From Methanospirillum hungatei (GTDB lineage Archaea; Halobacteriota; Methanomicrobia; Methanomicrobiales; Methanospirillaceae): a stretch of DNA of 12,643 nt. This document shows positions 1,029-7,254 of the stretch, in pieces. Position 1 is the stretch's first letter, and each line of letters starts with the position of its first letter. The position numbers and the translations under genes are program-made. Location: positions 1-12,643 of the forward strand of contig NZ_JAIWNS010000149.1 in NCBI RefSeq assembly GCF_020216685.1. Direction: 5' to 3'. The notes beneath the pieces are model-generated. The model was not told the DNA's origin, did not search any database, and worked only from the letters and a program-made list of their open reading frames with translations.

Positions 1029-1358
1029 TCACTCTTCGGTCAGTTCTTCAGGTTCCTCTCCCCGATCACAGAAATTATCCTCATCTACATCGCTCCAGAG
1101 CGGACAGCCCGGGCAACTGCAATGGAACCCTTTCGGACAGGTCCCTGCAAGAGCATCTGCTTTTTCCTGTGTCTCTTCATCGATCAGTGTCAGATTTCCT
1201 GCACTATCGGTAATATACTTCTTCTCTTCGCTTTGTGTGGCAAGGAGGGGGTCCTGGCATCCGTCCCGTCCTGTTGAGGGAGCAGCCAGGACAAATCCGC
1301 TTATCATACTAATCAGGCACAACACCTGAAAAATTGTCAATATGTGTTTCGTATTCAT
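1029..1358 (-). CDS. Secreted Cys-rich small protein with an acidic DxDxD-type motif
   Basis: This 109-residue protein has a clear signal peptide: Lys4, a hydrophobic core from about 7 to 25 and an Ala-rich end (VLAAPS), so the mature part is likely outside the membrane. The mature part holds C34, then C74, C80, C82, C85 and C97 within CPKGFHCSCPGCPLW and DVDEDNFCDRGEE. The block CPGCPLWSD..D.D..CDRGE resembles Cys/acidic segments seen beside Fe-S or FMN-binding electron-transfer proteins of anaerobes, and the D-x-D-x-D run could bind a divalent cation such as Ca2+. I do not recognise a named family. The start is supported by AAGGAG (1364-1369) with 5 nt spacing; that site overlaps the stop codon of the DUF4405 gene 9 nt upstream, implying coupled translation. 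A redox or metal role at the cell surface is inference. Confidence 0.75.
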   Translation of the reverse strand: MNTKHILTIFQVLCLISMISGFVLAAPSTGRDGCQDPLLATQSEEKKYITDSAGNLTLIDEETQEKADALAGTCPKGFHCSCPGCPLWSDVDEDNFCDRGEEPEELTEE

Positions 1359-1363
1359 AGGTA

Positions 1364-1369
1364 CTCCTT
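1364..1369 (-). promoter_or_regulatory. Shine-Dalgarno AAGGAG overlapping the upstream stop codon
   Basis: On the minus strand the sequence is TAAGGAG-TACCT-ATG. The stop codon TAA of the DUF4405 gene is shared with the ribosome binding site of the Cys-rich gene. This fixes the ATG at 1358 as the start and suggests the two proteins are made in step. Confidence 0.75.
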
Positions 1370-1619
1370 ATGCAATCAAGTTCCGAACCATTCTCCGGAT
1401 AAATCCTCTAAACTGATATATGTGGACCATTACCAGAACGGTCATGAGTAATCCTGACCAGTCATGAATATCAGTGATCAGAGCGACCGGAACCTGGCGG
1501 TACGTCAGACCCAGAGCAGGTATCAGACCCGGCCATTTGATAAGACCAGTCACCACACAGATGACGGTTACGATGAGGAGGAGAAGACTGGTGATTCTGA
1601 TGACCATTTTTCTACTCAT
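1368..1619 (-). CDS. DUF4405 family small membrane protein (cytochrome b-like, putative heme binder)
   Basis: An 83-residue protein with one hydrophobic segment at about 8-27 and a second at about 55-70. The block ALITDIHDWSGLLMTVLVMV followed by H66 is typical of DUF4405 proteins, in which a helix bearing two well-spaced His residues resembles the heme-ligating helices of b-type cytochromes. Here they are H52 and H66, 14 residues apart. The protein is short; a heme site would need several helices, so it may work as an oligomer or with a partner. It is first in a two-gene unit with the exported Cys-rich protein, which supports a membrane electron-transfer role, though no reaction can be named. 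The start at ATG 1619-1617 is preceded by AAGGA. Family call good, heme binding inferred. Confidence 0.75.
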   Translation of the reverse strand: MSRKMVIRITSLLLLIVTVICVVTGLIKWPGLIPALGLTYRQVPVALITDIHDWSGLLMTVLVMVHIYQFRGFIRRMVRNLIA

Positions 1620-1738: not shown

Positions 1739-1893
1739 ATAATCCGCCAGGTTCGCCCTTACAACCATCCGGTTCAGAGGGGGGAGGTGGGAGCAGGACC
1801 GGTCAATAGAATCCCTTATCCCCTCTCAATGAAAATCTGATGAGGAGAGGCAGTACGTCTGATTTTGAGTAGGATATCTACTGCGGTATCACC
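1739..1893 (+). other. Intergenic leader upstream of the P-type ATPase gene
   Basis: No gene is visible. The stretch holds a G-rich run (about 1779-1791) that includes an SD-like GGAGGTG with no suitable start codon just after it. It also holds two weak inverted repeats: CCTCTC 1822-1827 with GAGAGG 1845-1850, and GCAGTA 1850-1855 with TACTGC 1879-1884. The second ends 9 nt before the ATG. These arms are short and could be chance. I recognise no known riboswitch class. Confidence 0.3.
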
Positions 1894-4467
1894 ATGACGT
1901 TTCCGGATATTGAGACCATTCAAGGGCTATCAAGTGAGCAGGTAGCAGAACGGATACGGATATATGGATATAACGAACTTCCTGAACACAAGAAAGACGG
2001 CATTGCTGAGATCATTCTTGAAGTTGCCAGAGAACCGATGTTTCTCCTCCTGGTAGTAAGTGGTTGTATCTACTTTTTCCTTGGTGATATCACCGAAGCA
2101 GTCATGCTCATGAGTTTTGTGCTGGTCATCATCGGTATTACCGTATACCAGGAGCGAAAGACTGAACGGGCACTTGAGGCCCTCCGAAACCTCTCAAGTC
2201 CCCGGGCTCTGGTAATAAGAGACGGGCAGCAGAGGCGGATTGCAGGACGGGAGGTTGTTCCGGGCGATATTCTCATTCTTGCCGAGGGGGATCGGGTTCC
2301 TGCCGATGGAATTCTCCTCTCGTCGAATAATATCACGGTTGATGAATCACTCCTCACCGGTGAATCGGTCCCGGTTCGAAAGATTGCCTGGACTGAAGGG
2401 CTGAAAGAGCGGGCTTTGGGCGGAGATGATCAGCCCTTTGTATACTCAGGAACCCTCGTGGTCCAGGGTCAGGCTCTTGCAGAAGTCAGAACCACCGGGT
2501 CAGGAACAGAGATGGGGAAGATCGGCACTGTCCTTGATGAAGTGTCGCGGGATGATACGAGACTGAAACGGGAGATAACCTTGATGGTGAAGATCATCGC
2601 AACATGCGGCCTTCTTCTCTGCCTTATCATCGTTATCACCTATGGAATCGGCCGGGCAGACTGGATATCAGGACTTCTTGCAGGAATTACTCTTGCGATG
2701 GCGATCCTTCCGGAAGAGTTCCCGGTGGTTTTAACGGTTTTTCTTGCACTTGGTGCATGGCGAATCTCGCAGAAGCATGTTCTGACCCGTCAGGTATCTG
2801 CAATTGAGACGCTGGGTGCTGCATCAGTTCTCTGCGTAGACAAGACCGGGACGCTTACGCTTAATAAAATGACCGTTCAGTCCTTTTTCGCAGATGATAA
2901 ATTCTGTGAACATGATAGTGCCGGCGAAAATTCTGTCCCTGATTCCTGTCATGAACTCTCTGAATACGCCATTCTTGCCTGTAAGAAAGATCCGTTTGAT
3001 CCCATGGAAAAGGCACTTATGCAGCTCTCTGATGGGGATTTTGGAAGAACAGAGCATATACACAAAGACTGGAGACTTATCACCGAATACCCCCTCTCTT
3101 CTGAACTCCTCGCGATGTCCAATGTCTGGGAATCTCCGGACGGATACGAGTTTATCATCGCCGCGAAAGGTTCTCCTGAGGCGATTGCTGACCTGTGCCA
3201 TTTCTCAGAGCAGGAGCAGAAAAAACTGGCAGAACAGATAGAGATGATGGCATCACGGGGACTTCGGATTCTTGGCGTTGCAAAATCATCATTTTCAATC
3301 TCTGAGCTCCCGCGTATCCAGCATGACTTTGTTTTCACCTTCCTTGGCCTTATCGGGTTTGCAGATCCGGTCAGACCAGGGATCGCAAAAGCCGTGCGGG
3401 AATGTTATGCTGCCGGTATCAGGATCATTATGATAACCGGTGATTACCCCCGGACAGCCCAAAATATTGCAGATCAGATTGGGCTTTTGCATACCGATAC
3501 TACGGTTACCGGGACTATGCTTGCCGAATGCTCGGATGATGACCTCAAAGAGCGGCTCAAAACAGCTACTGTGTTTGCACGGGCCGTTCCTGAACAGAAA
3601 CTCCGGATTGTCAGGGCCCTCAAAGCGAATAATGAGGTTGTTGCCATGACCGGTGACGGGGTAAATGATGCACCGGCTTTGAAATCTGCAGATATAGGAA
3701 TTGCCATGGGAGGAAGGGGCACTGATGTTGCCCGTGAAGCATCCTCACTCGTGCTCCTTGATGATAATTTCACCTCAATCGTCTCTGCAGTGCGACTTGG
3801 CCGGAGGATATATGACAACCTCAAAAAAGCAATGGCCTATATCTTCTCAATCCACATTCCAATCGCAGGAATGTCACTCATTCCGGTTATTTTTGACATG
3901 CCACTCATTCTCATGCCGATGCATATCGTCTTCCTTGAACTCATCATAGACCCGACCTGTTCTATCGTCTTTGAGGCAGAGAAAGAAGAACAGGACATTA
4001 TGAACCGGCCGCCCAGAACTGCGGATGAACGGCTCTTCACACCAAAGACCCTCTTTCTCAGCCTGATGCAGGGGGTTGTTGTTCTCGGTGTTGTGATGCT
4101 CGTGTATCTTCATTCCCTGATGAGCGGGCTTTTAGAGACAGAGGTGCGTACCATGACTTTTATCACCATTGTGATCGCAAACCTGCTCCTCATTCTCACA
4201 AACCGTTCCTGGTCAGAGACGATAGTATCTACGATTCGAACACCAAATACGGCCATGCGATGGGTATTTGCAGGAACAATCTCCAGCCTTGTCCTGATTC
4301 TTGCAATACCAGCCCTCCGGGATCTCTTCAGATTTTCTCTGATCCCAGCCGAAGGAATTCTCACCTGTGTGCTCGCTGCCAGTGTGAGTGTGCTCTGGTT
4401 TGAGGCATGGAAACTCTGGAACAATGCAAGAGATCAAAGCCATCAAATTTCATTGCAGAAAACTTAA
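1894..4467 (+). CDS. Cation-transporting P-type ATPase (P2/Ca2+-ATPase-like)
   Basis: An 857-residue membrane pump that uses ATP and a phospho-Asp intermediate to move cations. The N-terminal cation ATPase domain (LSSEQVAERIRIYGYNEL) is followed by actuator TGES at 155-158, M4 motif PEEFP at 273-277, phosphorylation site DKTGTLT with D316, nucleotide-site KGSPEA with K425, MITGD ending at D517, and TGDGVNDAP with D588 and D592. Length and order fit P2-type pumps and the gene looks intact. The ion-binding helices differ from SERCA: M4 keeps Glu274 but reads PEEFP rather than PEGLP, M5 shows SIHIPIAG without the SERCA Asn/Glu, and M6 reads LELIIDPTC with E682 and D686. Substrate could be Ca2+, Mn2+ or another cation; none can be read off safely. 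No strong SD is visible before the ATG. Two minus-strand exported-protein genes converge on it from downstream. Confidence 0.92.
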   Translation: MTFPDIETIQGLSSEQVAERIRIYGYNELPEHKKDGIAEIILEVAREPMFLLLVVSGCIYFFLGDITEAVMLMSFVLVIIGITVYQERKTERALEALRNLSSPRALVIRDGQQRRIAGREVVPGDILILAEGDRVPADGILLSSNNITVDESLLTGESVPVRKIAWTEGLKERALGGDDQPFVYSGTLVVQGQALAEVRTTGSGTEMGKIGTVLDEVSRDDTRLKREITLMVKIIATCGLLLCLIIVITYGIGRADWISGLLAGITLAMAILPEEFPVVLTVFLALGAWRISQKHVLTRQVSAIETLGAASVLCVDKTGTLTLNKMTVQSFFADDKFCEHDSAGENSVPDSCHELSEYAILACKKDPFDPMEKALMQLSDGDFGRTEHIHKDWRLITEYPLSSELLAMSNVWESPDGYEFIIAAKGSPEAIADLCHFSEQEQKKLAEQIEMMASRGLRILGVAKSSFSISELPRIQHDFVFTFLGLIGFADPVRPGIAKAVRECYAAGIRIIMITGDYPRTAQNIADQIGLLHTDTTVTGTMLAECSDDDLKERLKTATVFARAVPEQKLRIVRALKANNEVVAMTGDGVNDAPALKSADIGIAMGGRGTDVAREASSLVLLDDNFTSIVSAVRLGRRIYDNLKKAMAYIFSIHIPIAGMSLIPVIFDMPLILMPMHIVFLELIIDPTCSIVFEAEKEEQDIMNRPPRTADERLFTPKTLFLSLMQGVVVLGVVMLVYLHSLMSGLLETEVRTMTFITIVIANLLLILTNRSWSETIVSTIRTPNTAMRWVFAGTISSLVLILAIPALRDLFRFSLIPAEGILTCVLAASVSVLWFEAWKLWNNARDQSHQISLQKT

Positions 4468-4517: not shown

Positions 4518-4841
4518 TCAGAAGCGGTGGCCATTCCCATGCCCATGGGATCCTGACCGCCCGCCATGGCCAAATCTCATCCCTGCCTGATGATGCATAC
4601 CGGTTCCATCAAGAGGTCTGACTCCGTTGTTCGGACAGTTCTCCAGGATGCATGTTCCATTCCCTGAACACGGGCCATATCCGGCTTGTAACTGACCATT
4701 CTGATGAGAGAGGCCATAGTGATACCCGGTCCCGTCCGTGGGCCCTGTCTTTCCTGCACCAGATACCGGTAGAGCTACCAGGAGCATGACCAGAACCGCA
4801 AGAAGTCCGATGCTCATAAGACCTATTGCTCTTTGGTTCAT
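4518..4841 (-). CDS. Small exported Cys/Gly-rich protein with a His/Gly-rich tail (paralogue of the next gene upstream)
   Basis: Starting at ATG 4841 the product is 107 residues. A GTG at 4850 would add three residues, but AGGTGA (4847-4852) sits 5 nt before the ATG, so I prefer the ATG. A signal peptide (RAIGLMSIGLLAVLVMLLVA) ends near VSGAG. The mature part has a DGTGYHYG block, then C-x5-C-x4-CPNN and PLDGTGMHH, and ends in a Gly/His-rich tail (GHGGRSGSHGHGNGHRF). The Cys/CPNN/DGTGM block matches the neighbouring protein, so the two are tandem paralogues; the His tail is unique to this one and could bind Zn, Ni or Cu. I do not recognise a characterised family. Expression is probably coupled to the upstream paralogue, whose stop lies inside this gene's ribosome binding site. 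A metal-buffering role outside the cell is inference. Confidence 0.75.
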   Translation of the reverse strand: MNQRAIGLMSIGLLAVLVMLLVALPVSGAGKTGPTDGTGYHYGLSHQNGQLQAGYGPCSGNGTCILENCPNNGVRPLDGTGMHHQAGMRFGHGGRSGSHGHGNGHRF

Positions 4842-4846
4842 GTGAC

Positions 4847-4852
4847 TCACCT
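4847..4852 (-). promoter_or_regulatory. Shine-Dalgarno AGGTGA containing the stop codon of the upstream gene
   Basis: Minus-strand sequence AGGTGA-GTCAC-ATG: the TGA inside the SD is the stop of the 78-residue secreted protein. It decides the ATG at 4841 over the GTG at 4850 and indicates stop-start coupled translation. Confidence 0.7.
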
Positions 4853-5083
4853 TTTCAGATTTTTCCCGTACTGCATTCCGGTTCCATCACGGGGCGGGGT
4901 TTGATTGTTCGGGCAGTCTGCCTGTGGGCAATCCGGATTTGGACAGACCCCGGTCCCCGCTGAACCATCGCCATTCTGCAGCATAATACCATTTCCATTT
5001 CCACCTTGTCCGGCTGCTGATACCGGGAAAGTGGCTCCTAAGGCAATAAGGCCCAGGATTAGGATTACGACTATTGCTTTCAT
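4847..5083 (-). CDS. Small exported Cys/Gly-rich protein with CPNN and DGTGM motifs
   Basis: The likely start is the ATG at 5083 (MKAIVVILILGLIALGATF), giving 78 residues. An in-frame ATG at 5116 would add 11 charged residues ahead of a textbook signal peptide, and AGGAAAAG lies just before 5083, so the shorter form is preferred. The signal peptide probably ends near VSAAGQ. The mature protein is about 50 residues: a Gly/Asn-rich linker, then C-x4-C-x4-CPNN, then PPRDGTGMQYG. The three Cys and DGTGM are shared with the next gene. No known catalytic family is visible; three conserved Cys suggest a metal or disulfide site. It is first in the pair, driven by a TATA box at about 5134-5143, with the FHA regulator gene running divergently. 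Confidence 0.75.
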   Translation of the reverse strand: MKAIVVILILGLIALGATFPVSAAGQGGNGNGIMLQNGDGSAGTGVCPNPDCPQADCPNNQTPPRDGTGMQYGKNLKR

Positions 5084-5133
5084 ATCTTTTCCTGACCGCC
5101 TGAGCGGTGCATACATCCCTCTCGGCTTTGTCC

Positions 5134-5143
5134 GGATATATAG
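5134..5143 (-). promoter_or_regulatory. TATA box for the secreted-protein pair
   Basis: Minus-strand CTATATATCC lies about 50 nt before the ATG at 5083. A start site about 25 nt downstream would fall near 5110, leaving a leader of roughly 28 nt. On the plus strand the adjacent GGATAAAATGG could serve the divergent regulator gene, with a start near 5170. Confidence 0.5.
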
Positions 5144-5159
5144 GGATAAAATGGGAGAA

Positions 5160-5174
5160 GTTCATGCCATGAAC
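5160..5174. promoter_or_regulatory. Perfect palindrome GTTCATG-C-CATGAAC in the divergent promoter region (candidate operator)
   Basis: A 7-1-7 bp perfect inverted repeat lies between the divergent secreted-protein and regulator genes, directly upstream of the minus-strand TATA box and near the expected start site of the plus-strand transcript. A second inverted pair, AAGTTC 5158-5163 with GAACTT 5194-5199, overlaps it. Position and symmetry suit a dimeric winged-helix regulator, most simply the product of the adjacent gene. No binding data exist here; the link is inference. Confidence 0.5.
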
Positions 5175-5221
5175 CTCATGGGTACACAGGGTAGAACTTG
5201 ATAACCATGGCCGGCCTATGA

Positions 5222-6028
5222 ATGAGTGGGATGAATATGAATCCGGAAAGACCAGATGACCGGACAATCCTTACGAGCTCAGATCCAGAGTTTATATCAG
5301 AATTATCCGAATATCTTGATGTTCTCGCAAGCCCCGTCCGTCTCCAGATCCTCTCATTTATCGGAAGAAAACCCAGGACAGTCAGGCAGATCTCACATGA
5401 GATCGCAACCAGCTATGAAAATACCAAAAAACACCTGGCAAAACTGCTCTCGCTCGGCATCATCCGAAAAGAGATAGGAGTATCTGATGAACCGGTAAAC
5501 ATGGGTCAGCCGGTTTTTTATTATACGCTTGTCCCAGACGGTCTCTCCCATGCTGCACATAATCTCACGCTGTTCAGCCTGGTTGCCGGAACGAGTGCCC
5601 CGGACCTTTCAAAGCAGGTACTAGCCGCACAGAGCAGCCTGCACACCATTCTCCCCGCAGGACCCGGCCTTGTCATCATGAATGGTTCAGAGCAGGGAAG
5701 AATGATTGAACTGACTGAACCAGTATACCGGGTCGGAAGAATTGAAGAGGGATGGAACGGAATCTCTCCTGAACAGGCCCTTCTTCTGAATGATGAATAC
5801 AGATCGGTCAGCCGGGTGTCACGGCCTCATGCATGGGTAAAAAAGCAGGCCGGGTTCTGGACAATAGCGGATGGGAACAGTAAAGGGGGAACCTATGTGA
5901 ATGGTAAACCAATCGCTCATGAACCCGTAGTTTTGCAGGACGGCGACAGAATAGAACTCTCACCAGGAACCCTTGGGGTAACCTTTACCTTTCATTCAGG
6001 AGATACCAATCCGGATCATACCCCATGA
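5222..6028 (+). CDS. ArsR-like winged-helix DNA-binding protein fused to a C-terminal FHA domain
   Basis: A 268-residue cytoplasmic protein. Residues about 28-105 form a winged helix of ArsR type (YLDVLASPVRLQILSFI, then TVRQISHEIATSYENTKKHL and a GQPVFYYTL wing). Residues about 150-258 form an FHA domain, which in known proteins binds phosphothreonine: VGR with R173, SRPHAWV with S200 and H203, then SKGGTYVNG and LQDGDRIEL. In the usual S-x-NGT motif the Asn is Gly222 here, so peptide recognition may differ. The gene overlaps the Ser/Thr kinase gene by ATGA, so kinase and pThr-reader are probably made together. The likely role is a transcription factor whose activity depends on phosphorylation by that kinase. 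Starts at 5222, 5231 and 5237 are all possible; none has a strong SD. Confidence 0.85.
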   Translation: MSGMNMNPERPDDRTILTSSDPEFISELSEYLDVLASPVRLQILSFIGRKPRTVRQISHEIATSYENTKKHLAKLLSLGIIRKEIGVSDEPVNMGQPVFYYTLVPDGLSHAAHNLTLFSLVAGTSAPDLSKQVLAAQSSLHTILPAGPGLVIMNGSEQGRMIELTEPVYRVGRIEEGWNGISPEQALLLNDEYRSVSRVSRPHAWVKKQAGFWTIADGNSKGGTYVNGKPIAHEPVVLQDGDRIELSPGTLGVTFTFHSGDTNPDHTP

Positions 6029-7254
6029 ACACTACCATCCTCCCCGGCCCGGATATCTCTCTCCGAAAGAAATCACGGTACATGTGGGGAGTTCTGACTA
6101 TCCATCTTCTCCTTGCACTCCAGTACCTTCTGGTTGAGTTTCTGTTTCTGTCAGTCCCGATTAAGCACGGACATGGAGGAGGACAGGGGATGGGGAATGC
6201 GATAAACGTCTCCCTCCCTTCATTCTCCATCCTCTTCATGCTTTTGATACTGTGCCATATCATCTCTCTTATAGGGGCCCGTCTTTCAATTCGCTTCATT
6301 ATTGGATCTGGATTTGGTCTGGTTATCACCGCCACCCTGACGTTAGGACTTCTGCTCTTCTCCCGCCAGTCAATGAACCTTCTTGAGACGGTCTATGCTC
6401 ATGCGATACTCGTTATCCTTTCACTTGTCTGTTCTCTTCTCATCGGGGTGTATATGGTGATCAGTGAGGTGCGGAAAGGTCATAGGAGTGAAGATAAACC
6501 TCCGGAACGGGATTTATCGTCCTTTCCCCTGCCGATGAACCGATACAGAAATGTCAGACCCATAGGAGAAGGGGGTGTTGGCACGATCTGGTATGCAGAA
6601 CGAATGGGTGATGGAAGGCCTGTCGTCGTGAAAGTCCCTCGAAACGATGATGAAATGACCGGTCTTTCATTTATGCAGGAGATTAGTATCTGGAAAGATC
6701 TGGAGCACCCCCATATTGCAACGCTTCTTTCTGCAAATATCCTCCCCGTTCCCTATATTGAGATAGAATACTTCCCTCAATCGGTAGCAGACCTGAAAAC
6801 CCCGGTGCCAACCGGACAGGTATTGCAGATTATTCAGGGTCTTGTATCAGCTCTTTTATACGCTCATGGCCGGGGAGTTACCCATTGTGATATAAAACCG
6901 ACAAATATTCTTCTGAATCATGAAGGGATGGTAAAACTCACAGACTGGGGGCTTGCACGGTCAGGAAGAGACCGGTGGTCAGTATCCGGGTTTTCTCCAA
7001 CCTATGCAGCACCAGAGCAGCGTTCGGTGTATTCAGAATGCACCGCTCCAACGGACATCTGGCAGGTTGGAATGGTATGTGCCGAACTCCTCACCGGGAG
7101 TCCCAAGATCCCGTCCGGAACAGAGCCTGTCTTTCAGACCGATGAAGGAGTGAAATTATTACCAATTATTCTGAAATGTCTGGCACCAGACCAGGCCGGA
7201 CGGTATCAGTCGATCCAGGAACTTTCAGATGATCTTGAGAGGATTGCTTCTTAA
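6025..7254 (+). CDS. Membrane-anchored Hanks-type Ser/Thr protein kinase
   Basis: A 409-residue protein with about four N-terminal membrane helices (roughly 20-44, 65-88, 91-113, 121-147) and a cytoplasmic kinase domain (about 173-408). This is the reverse of most bacterial PknB-type kinases, which have the kinase at the N-terminus. The loop after helix 1 contains the His/Gly-rich KHGHGGGQGMGN (47-58), probably outside the cell. Kinase features: Gly-rich loop GEGGVG, K203 (VVVK), E219 in the C-helix, HCDIKPTN with D289, K291 and N294, metal-binding D307 in DWG (usually DFG), APE 329-331, D344 and R393. All catalytic residues are present, but HRD is HCD, so control by an activation-loop phosphate may be absent. 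It likely phosphorylates the FHA regulator or its partners. Start ATG 6025 overlaps the regulator stop. Confidence 0.9.
   Translation: MNTTILPGPDISLRKKSRYMWGVLTIHLLLALQYLLVEFLFLSVPIKHGHGGGQGMGNAINVSLPSFSILFMLLILCHIISLIGARLSIRFIIGSGFGLVITATLTLGLLLFSRQSMNLLETVYAHAILVILSLVCSLLIGVYMVISEVRKGHRSEDKPPERDLSSFPLPMNRYRNVRPIGEGGVGTIWYAERMGDGRPVVVKVPRNDDEMTGLSFMQEISIWKDLEHPHIATLLSANILPVPYIEIEYFPQSVADLKTPVPTGQVLQIIQGLVSALLYAHGRGVTHCDIKPTNILLNHEGMVKLTDWGLARSGRDRWSVSGFSPTYAAPEQRSVYSECTAPTDIWQVGMVCAELLTGSPKIPSGTEPVFQTDEGVKLLPIILKCLAPDQAGRYQSIQELSDDLERIAS

Follow-up and report, generated by a model that had tools for sequence, protein, structure and literature searches.

A membrane Ser/Thr kinase paired with a winged-helix–FHA regulator in Methanomicrobiales, and a possible GarA/OdhI-like phospho-switch on a DNA-binding protein

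Can a eukaryote-like kinase in the membrane of a methanogen pass its signal directly to a DNA-binding protein? The question is raised by a locus of Methanospirillum hungatei, studied here in a window of 12,643 nucleotides (the whole stretch of DNA analysed, contig NZ_JAIWNS010000149.1). A preliminary description noted an ArsR-like winged helix fused to an FHA domain, an ATGA overlap with a four-helix membrane kinase, and divergence of this pair from two small exported proteins. The open reading frames bear out this layout.

5222..6028, plus strand: regulator with ArsR-like winged helix and FHA domain (268 amino acids; Pfam HTH_5 and FHA matches; AlphaFold model)
6025..7254, plus strand: Hanks-type Ser/Thr membrane kinase (409 amino acids; four transmembrane segments and a C-terminal kinase domain)
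4847..5116, minus strand: EX2, small exported Cys/Gly-rich protein (likely start ATG near 5083, MKAIVV...)
4518..4850, minus strand: EX1, small exported Gly/His-rich protein (likely start ATG near 4841, MNQRA...)

The junction of regulator and kinase genes reads CCCCATGA, in which four bases (ATGA) are shared, and the two minus-strand frames are also coupled. The starts of EX1 and EX2 are those proposed from relatives. Going by its relatives, the regulator may truly begin at ATG 5237, in which case the residue called Thr15 below becomes Thr10.

Conservation was judged over 101 loci encoding a winged-helix (wHTH)-FHA protein, a non-random sample made up of the window, 40 loci hand-picked to span families and the 60 ranked next. 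A kinase gene lies downstream on the same strand in 92 of them and tail-to-tail in 2; 5 are cut by a contig end and 2 have none. The search for co-occurrence proposed in the preliminary description could have returned scattered, unlinked homologues; linkage was kept instead, in 92 of 101 loci. Three elements of the regulator stand out among the 92 pairs.

5330..5470, plus strand: predicted winged-helix DNA-binding segment, residues 37-83 (Pfam and conservation)
5735..5959, plus strand: FHA domain, residues 172-246 (Pfam and conservation)
5264..5266, plus strand: codon of Thr15, a candidate phosphosite (invariance; low-confidence N-terminal tail)

Both halves of the fusion match their Pfam models above cut-off, HTH_5/ArsR with 31.2 bits (cut-off 22) and FHA PF00498 with 47.2 bits (cut-off 20.7), which places the second half in the FHA family. 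Within the winged helix S64, Y65, N67, K70 and H71 are invariant in 92/92 regulators, and E66 (91/92), T68 (88/92) and K69 (85/92) are nearly so. The FHA domain keeps G172, R173, H203, S220 and N227 in all 92, and S200 is Ser in 85 and Thr in 7. A larger alignment of 105 rows retains R173 and H203 throughout, Ser at 200 in 101 and Asn at 227 in 99. The Gly-Arg, the Ser of SxxH, the His and the Asn of the VN pair, which we take to line the phosphothreonine (pThr) pocket, are thus all present. The Asn usual in the S-x-N-G-T loop of FHA domains is absent, since position 222 is Gly in 88/92 and Ser in 4/92. Most pocket residues are retained, and pThr binding by the regulator is predicted.

The N-terminal tail carries an invariant residue. 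Position 15 is Thr, never Ser, in 92/92 regulators, and in 104/104 of the rows of the larger alignment where the position is present. The AlphaFold model has a mean pLDDT of 82.6, with residues 1-15 below 50, and the tail around Thr15 is probably disordered. The model leaves this tail unplaced and does not show Thr15 docked in the FHA pocket. The spacing from Thr15 to helix 1 is identical in 92/92 regulators, so a structural role for this residue is also possible. Foldseek matches the regulator best to the GarA chain of 6i2p; the best match of the kinase is the PknB chain of the same entry.

The partner has the conserved residues of a Hanks-type kinase. Residues 174-367 match Pfam Pkinase with 113 bits, and the catalytic K, E, H-D, K, N, D-G and P-E are invariant in 92/92 kinases. 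Two Gly of the loop are kept in all 92, the first loop Gly in 86 and the Ala of APE in 87; the window kinase has HCD (non-RD) where 79/92 have HRD. Hydropathy places four transmembrane helices at residues 19-37, 67-85, 87-105 and 128-146, and the AlphaFold model (mean pLDDT 84.1) has long helices at 13-43, 57-82, 89-112 with 114-123, and 127-154, followed by the kinase fold. Transmembrane segments precede the kinase domain in 91/92 partners. The protein is not of the PASTA class (Stk1/PknB), scoring 108 bits against a cut-off of 450 over residues 172-408, with no PASTA match in Pfam. One short motif ahead of the membrane helices resembles that of the regulator tail.

6031..6042, plus strand: TTIL, predicted FHA docking site, kinase residues 3-6, at the predicted cytosolic N-terminus

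An N-terminal Thr-hydrophobic motif of this kind is found in 38 of 42 full-length kinases of the Methanospirillum clade, the window's included (42 of 46 were used, chosen on length and start). The strict juxtamembrane form T-(I/L/V)-(I/L/V/F) occurs in 48/92 kinases, against 11.5 (maximum 21) in residue shuffles, and is absent from the other 44. The juxtamembrane match of one kinase, L039, may sit inside a transmembrane segment. A control of unlinked kinases comprised only 7 proteins, 3 of them with transmembrane segments; one of these three (L337) has T[ILV][ILVF] between membrane and kinase domain.

An invariant tail Thr together with a similar Thr-hydrophobic motif in the kinase is what would be expected, judging from sequence, of a GarA/OdhI-like switch. 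We consider it on balance probable that the gene pair is a Ser/Thr-kinase signalling module of the Methanomicrobiales that places such a phospho-switch on a DNA-binding regulator. The kinase, with its variable N-terminal membrane or extracytoplasmic part, would sense a cue beyond the cytoplasm and autophosphorylate at a Thr of its N-terminal cytosolic or juxtamembrane part, as the recurrent motif suggests. The regulator's FHA domain would dock on this phospho-Thr, whereupon the kinase would phosphorylate the tail Thr, a step suggested by its 92/92 invariance. The phospho-tail could then fill the FHA domain, in the same subunit or in a partner one, which would free the regulator and alter its DNA binding, as in GarA/OdhI. 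The 'repressor' of the preliminary description is here called a regulator, since it may act with either sign. PP2C phosphatases, whose genes share the cluster in 6 loci, may reset the module.

It is also conceivable, although we think it fairly unlikely, that docking is the whole mechanism: the FHA domain would tether the regulator to the autophosphorylated kinase, membrane sequestration would control DNA binding, and the tail Thr would have a structural part, such as capping helix 1 of the winged helix. The Thr-hydrophobic motifs of the kinases, the constant spacing of Thr15 and the undocked tail of the model all fit such an arrangement. Exclusive use of Thr at a low-confidence, probably disordered position does not, and there is a solved precedent, 6hc1, which by its entry title pairs an FHA domain with a phosphorylated peptide from its own N-terminus.

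Under the phospho-switch reading, the winged helix would act on operators in its own promoter and in front of genes for exported or envelope proteins, and candidates of this kind are seen at part of the loci. The following features of the window are relevant here.

5159..5183, no strand: operator-like site in the gap separating the divergent genes, AGTTCATGCCATGAACC-N4-GGGT, including the palindrome at 5160-5174
1750..1774, no strand: a further operator-like site, GGTTCGCCCTTACAACC-N4-GGTT, located where the 1368-1619 gene and the P-type ATPase gene diverge
1894..4467, plus strand: P-type cation ATPase, possible local target (nearest model PMR1-type Ca, below its cut-off)
1368..1619, minus strand: possible target, a small membrane protein with DUF4405 (cytochrome b561-like)
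1029..1358, minus strand: possible target, an exported Cys-rich protein whose gene is coupled to that of the DUF4405 protein

The perfect promoter palindrome of the preliminary description exists (GTTCATGCCATGAAC, 5160-5174, 7+1+7) and is the sole one of its form in the window. As evidence by itself it was rejected, because shuffled sequences contain 1.07 on average and a looser pattern is likewise at chance level. It counts as evidence only as one copy of a motif, GGTTcaaNNNttgAACC-N4-GGTT, that recurs in regulator promoters of several genera. Redundancy filters reduced the 92 upstream regions to 68 for dyad enumeration and 62 for motif scoring. GGTT-N9-AACC is present in 9/68, against 0.12 expected, and ranks first among all enumerated dyads. 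A 17-position matrix was made from 21 of the 25 sites of at least 17 bits, with four (L041, L065, L119 and L133) removed by hand. Of 30 held-out promoters, drawn from the best 80 of 114 without overlap with the training upstreams, 9 carry the motif, against 0.24 in shuffles (maximum 2); these loci come from related genera and include one identical pair of sites (L290, L302).

A clear operator copy is missing from most regulator promoters. In-sample, 25/92 reach 17 bits, and the window site scores 16.6. Two more Methanospirillum loci score low (L237, -2.9; L238, 6.9), and most Methanoculleus loci lack a good site in the regulator promoter. The pattern was scanned in 17 hand-chosen genomes, and 15 remote sites were also chosen by hand. 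A genome-wide Methanospirillum regulon defined by the pattern was rejected, as counts in 7 whole genomes of that genus were not above a reversed-pattern control.

A second alternative is that the regulator switches nothing beyond its own operon and genes closely linked to it and has no trans regulon, remote sites being coincidental. The operator-like site of the P-type ATPase is present in 3 linked orthologues and absent in 6/6 unlinked ones, so this gene is not supported as a conserved trans target; this result and the Methanospirillum counts favour purely local control. We nevertheless judge it quite unlikely. Sites picked blind to genes adjoin homologous exported-protein genes in 5 genomes, and an unlinked DUF4405 operon (in L231) carries an 18.4-bit site. 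Among Methanoregula DUF4349 genes, 7/23 have the motif upstream, against 0.24 expected (maximum 2), and 5 of these 7 are in genomes outside the pattern scan; the set is 23 of 26 matches, 3 partial ones having been dropped, and two of its sites (L357, L363) are identical. For other CARDB/ABC/MacB copies, a 12-bit site is found in only 1 of 8 upstream regions. In Methanospirillum the targets of the phospho-switch would be the divergent exported pair and the regulator–kinase pair itself, and possibly the DUF4405/exported-Cys pair and the ATPase.

The exported pair, with its DGTGM and CPNN motifs, had been read in the preliminary description as controlled by the regulator. It belongs outside the core and is a Methanospirillum feature: the 44 EX2 homologues are labelled Methanospirillum, given a higher-rank label (Methanomicrobiales or Methanobacteriota archaeon) or unlabelled. 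Neither EX1 nor EX2 has a Pfam or NCBIfam match.

The regulator and kinase themselves form a true unit, as had been proposed, being neighbours in the great majority of loci and diverging together. In 85/92 loci no more than 200 bases separate the regulator stop from the called start of the kinase; the gaps in the other 7 are 220-987 bases and may include further genes, and several computed gaps are start-codon artefacts. Divergence of the two proteins is correlated over the 92 pairs (r=0.93). When partners were swapped among 14 paralogue pairs drawn from 12 genomes, the true partner was the better fit in 13. Co-divergence could arise from linkage alone. That the kinase serves other proteins, with the wHTH-FHA protein an independent regulator co-transcribed for dosage only, is very improbable, given linkage in 92/101 loci that persists across differing genomic surroundings, matched divergence between paralogous partners and an FHA fold nearest to pThr-binding ones.

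The regulator was found only in the order Methanomicrobiales in a survey that included 232 genomes of one class, 154 of which carry 1 to 4 wHTH-FHA genes each. Among the 23 strong Hanks kinases of 8 hand-chosen genomes, 16 are partners of such a gene, as judged from presence of the FHA gene and from locus coordinates. A fuller version of the phospho-switch reading, which we find plausible but hold tentatively, is a two-component-like Ser/Thr system that is the commonest output of Methanomicrobiales Hanks kinases: with matching Thr-hydrophobic motifs in both partners, FHA would dock on the kinase and then flip to the phospho-tail, switching GGTT-N9-AACC operators of exported proteins. Like two-component systems, the pair combines a sensor kinase of variable input with a dedicated DNA-binding partner and occurs as paralogous pairs in some genomes; a Ser/Thr Hanks kinase and FHA domain here replace His kinase and receiver.

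The nearest precedents are EmbR-PknH, GarA-PknB and ArnA/ST0829 of the Sulfolobales. EmbR, a SARP-type protein, has a middle BTAD domain; the regulator's Pfam matches include none, and its full-length overlay on EmbR gives a TM score of 0.32. What the regulator shares with EmbR is a cognate membrane Hanks kinase, as judged by linkage and co-divergence. Unlike EmbR-PknH, the present pair is archaeal, has an ArsR-like winged helix joined to FHA via two helices, and occurs as paralogous gene pairs. The regulator's FHA half has GarA/OdhI among its best structural relatives, and these too have Thr N-terminal to FHA; GarA differs in that it works by binding metabolic enzymes, is not known to have a DNA-binding domain and carries a pair of Thr in its motif. 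The regulator, with its winged helix and single invariant Thr, falls outside this class, scoring 26.1 bits with the OdhI model (cut-off 200) and 36.1 with FhaB (cut-off 125). EmbR of Mycobacterium tuberculosis belongs to an OmpR-like family (PMC6213207), and the Thr phosphosites of GarA/OdhI, N-terminal to FHA, are described as part of an ETTS motif (PMC12321487).

Other comparisons are more distant. The ArnA family of Thermoprotei combines zinc finger and FHA and has a vWA partner (PMC6509490); passages of that report on ArnA-ArnB-ArnC/ST0829 mention no winged helix, and the Pfam matches of the regulator include no zinc finger. Haloarchaeal ESCRT loci encode a euryarchaeal FHA family, arCOG13166, together with Ser/Thr kinases and phosphatases (PMC10936438). 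In the passages concerned, this FHA is fused with a CdvA-like rather than a DNA-binding domain and is linked to Vps4/ESCRT-III. The DgcB protein of Bdellovibrio is a GGDEF-domain protein, unlike the DNA-binding regulator. The regulator resembles ArsR/SmtB in its HTH_5 match and in having SmtB (1smt) among its structural matches, but an ArsR metalloregulator identity is not supported: it has no Cys and scores 28.5 bits, below the NCBIfam metalloregulator subfamily cut-off of 55.

What is known of Ser/Thr signalling to genes in archaea comes mainly from Sulfolobales. FHA proteins are described as missing from most archaeal genomes analysed (PMC6509490) and, in the relevant passage of another report, as conserved only in Crenarchaeota (PMC10470591); a haloarchaeal FHA family has already been described (PMC10936438). 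Conservation of the present pair through much of the Methanomicrobiales suggests an uncharacterised route from surface signals to gene expression. Because the kinase gene is next to the regulator in most loci, and a phosphosite, docking motif and operator are predicted, direct tests should be simple. If the proposal is true, hydrogenotrophic methanogens would gain a candidate pathway from envelope to gene.

Open reading frames and Pfam profiles confirm the four genes named in the preliminary description, encoding a regulator with an ArsR-like winged helix and an FHA domain (wHTH-FHA), a membrane Hanks-type Ser/Thr kinase and two small exported proteins (EX2 and EX1). The regulator and kinase frames share an ATGA overlap. 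The window is an entire contig of a Methanospirillum-type genome, and the EX2 counterpart in M. hungatei JF-1 is Mhun_2665.

5222-6028, + strand: wHTH-FHA regulator, 268 aa (ORF, Pfam)
6025-7254, + strand: kinase, 409 aa (ORF, Pfam)
4847-5116 and 4518-4850, - strand: two coupled small exported proteins, EX2 and EX1, divergent from the regulator and kinase genes (ORFs)

An inverted repeat kept in close relatives, ACCGC-CTGA-GCGGT, lies at 5095-5108, 12 bases 5' of the likely EX2 start, and is possibly a leader hairpin. At 331-978 is a fragment of an M50-like membrane metalloprotease, whose top NCBIfam match, the daptide HExxH protease, scores 92 bits, below its cut-off of 300.

Of 199 genomes sampled from the order Methanomicrobiales, 137 carry a member of the regulator family (E <= 0.001, with some weak matches included); 154 of 232 sampled from the class do so at E <= 1e-10, with one to four copies each. 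Ten of 12 Methanospirillum genomes carry it, and the two without it are 84% and 75% complete. All 43 positive genomes in a 294-genome sample of the phylum belong to this same order. The best 80 of 114 loci in named genomes come mainly from Methanospirillum, Methanoregula, Methanolinea, Methanoculleus, Methanofollis, Methanocalculus and Methanomicrobium or bear higher-rank labels, one of which is Thermoplasmata.

Linkage was examined in 101 loci, comprising the window, 40 chosen across families and the next 60 by rank. A same-strand kinase domain lies downstream of the regulator in 92. Two loci have a kinase domain beyond the regulator on the opposite strand, five are cut by a contig end, and two have no kinase in the stretch examined, which in one case had only 1233 bases left. 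Called kinase starts, some of them uncertain, fall no more than 200 bases from the regulator stop in 85 of the 92 pairs (37 of these abut or overlap) and 220-987 bases from it in seven. Distances between regulators and between kinase domains correlate at r = 0.93 over the 92 pairs (maximum of 500 permutations, 0.18), and swapping partners between paralogues of the same genome gives a poorer fit in 13 of 14 cases. A comparison of kinase and regulator coordinates in eight genomes shows that, of the 23 strong Hanks kinases there, 16 have a wHTH-FHA gene as partner.

Two unlinked kinases from one Methanoregula-type assembly (L316 and L323, genome G140) look bacterial in style by eye, and contamination or transfer is possible. 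Another from the same order (L326) begins, by eye, with a TIR-like region followed by the kinase domain. The window's own genome has a second wHTH-FHA paralogue, truncated by a contig end (L044, G000:C211); in its Methanospirillum relatives (L035, L037, L039 and L041) the partner kinase is 529-547 aa long.

The FHA domain keeps its GR, H and N residues in 92 of 92 regulators, and Ser200 is Ser in 85 and Thr in seven. The usual Asn of the S-x-N-G-T loop is replaced by Gly in 88 of 92, and the SYENTKKH segment of the regulator is almost invariant. Thr15, in the N-terminal tail, is Thr in all 92 regulators and in 104 of 104 alignment rows having the position (row 105 starts later). Its neighbours are variable and its distance to helix 1 is constant; the +3 position carries an aliphatic residue (Leu, Ile or Val) in 66 of 92. 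In the AlphaFold model of the regulator, segments of three or more residues with pLDDT below 50 are confined to residues 1-15 and 262-268. Structures that match the FHA half best include GarA, OdhI, EmbR, and DgcB together with its own phosphorylated N-terminal peptide. Regulator and kinase each have as top Foldseek match a chain of the same solved structure, the PknB-GarA complex 6i2p; this is only suggestive because the kinase fold is widespread.

Catalytic Lys, Glu, His-Asp, Lys, Asn, Asp-Gly and Pro-Glu are present in all 92 kinases. The window's enzyme is non-RD (HCD), with Cys at that position in 11 of 92, and AlphaFold models it as long N-terminal helices followed by the kinase fold. 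Hydropathy places at least one transmembrane (TM) segment ahead of the kinase domain in 91 of 92, the exception (L103) being a mis-started reading, and none after the domain in the 92. The N-terminal parts are variable; two of three tested match NosD/beta-helix models and one matches PEGA. Methanospirillum kinases have a short, Gly-rich TM1-TM2 loop, often with His. In the window's kinase (residues 44-58, at 6154-6198) and close relatives this loop is Gly/His-rich (HGHGGGQGMGN), as is the EX1 C-terminus, and the cue could conceivably be related to a metal. Within the sequence retrieved around the loci, PP2C genes adjoin the pair in six (upstream in L058, L059, L065 and L133, downstream in L069 and L070) and one lies farther away in L054; seven of seven Methanospirillum genomes have PP2C genes elsewhere.

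A M..T[ILV][ILVF] start, most commonly MKTTI[LF], is found in 38 of 42 full-length Methanospirillum-clade kinases, including the window's. The four without it include P0161, which has a wrong start, P0188, perhaps likewise, and P0191, which starts MKTTFL. With the kinase domain in the cytosol and four TM helices before it, this N-terminus should be cytosolic too. T[ILV][ILVF] also occurs between the last TM segment and the kinase domain in 48 of 92 kinases, against 11.5 in residue shuffles (maximum of 500, 21), a count in which some stretches extend into TM sequence, the L039 match may be inside a TM segment and the L103 stretch, which comes from a mis-started frame, has no match. The sample for an unlinked-kinase control was too small.

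The simplest account using every invariant part is a relay of the GarA kind whose output is DNA binding. The kinase would autophosphorylate, the FHA domain would dock, the tail would be phosphorylated and close onto the FHA domain, and operator binding would be altered. Linkage, invariances and site patterns are observed, and we infer all phosphorylation and binding steps of the relay. One main rival is FHA docking that operates with no tail switch. The closest mechanistic analogue of the module is GarA-PknB and the closest functional analogue is EmbR-PknH; it falls outside the definitions of both the GarA and EmbR families.

The divergent promoter in seven Methanospirillum loci carries GTTC-N7-GAACC-N4-GGTT or near variants, with a variable centre. 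Dyad enumeration in the 68 upstream regions remaining after a redundancy filter gave as leading patterns GGTT-N9-AACC (nine regions, 0.12 expected) and AACC-N4-GGTT (nine, 0.22 expected), and expectation-maximisation seeded with the top pattern yielded gGTTnnnntnTTnAaCccnnagGTT. Scored against this operator matrix, 25 of 92 regulator promoters reach at least 17 bits in-sample; the window's scores 16.6. Among 30 held-out upstream regions that do not overlap the training set, nine, two of them identical, reach at least 12 bits, against 0.24 in shuffles (maximum 2), a count to which shared descent contributes because those loci are related to the training loci. Two further Methanospirillum loci (L237 and L238) score only -2.9 and 6.9 bits, and a good site is absent from most Methanoculleus loci. 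Pattern counts are above the reversed-pattern control in seven genomes of Methanoregula genus g4 and do not exceed it in seven Methanospirillum genomes.

The other main rival to the relay is a purely local, autoregulatory role, on which sites away from the regulator promoter bear. One is in the window:

1750-1774: second operator-like site, between the DUF4405/exported-Cys pair and the P-type ATPase gene (0.20 expected per window at that score)

This ATPase-side site is present in the three genomes where the cluster adjoins the regulator and missing from six unlinked ATPase orthologues. In L231, where the DUF4405 pair is unlinked to the regulator, a site of 18.4 bits lies 211 bp upstream of the pair. 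Where the pair is directly divergent from the regulator (L233), the best site has only 6.9 bits; the 19.4-bit site of a third pair (L234) is found only within another ORF, and a fourth (L232) has none. Outside Methanospirillum, a site precedes a CARDB/ABC/MacB cluster in L056, the only one of eight such upstream regions with a site, and lies immediately 3' of the kinase gene in L052, L053 and L055. Fifteen remote sites were chosen among the pattern matches; those in five genomes (L338, L339, L344, L345 and L346) adjoin homologous exported proteins or DUF4349-type lipoproteins, and two (L342 and L351) fall inside ORFs. In the reverse test, seven of 23 Methanoregula DUF4349 genes have a site of at least 12 bits, against 0.24 in shuffles (maximum 2). 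Five of the seven are from genomes outside the pattern scan, among them L357, whose site is the same as that of L363.

DUF2202 genes near the module in L038 and L040 are preceded, at a distance of about 87 bp, by operator-like sites of 11.6 and 15.1 bits respectively; copies in L034, L036 and L042 score -0.6, 7.3 and 6.0 bits. In L036 (2027-2748) this exported-protein gene appears split into two overlapping ORFs, where relatives have one.

In the available parts of the literature searched, whose reach mostly stopped short of subscription journals, no description of a wHTH-FHA/kinase module was found. One source mentions an FHA protein, Mhun_1501 (PMC9275234), and another gives the archaeal precedents ST0829 and ArnA, both from Thermoprotei (PMC6509490). 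FHA proteins are stated in PMC10470591 to be conserved among archaea in Crenarchaeota only. The FHA family that PMC10936438 describes in haloarchaea, where it is linked with ESCRT, kinase and phosphatase genes, contradicts that statement, and so do the present data.
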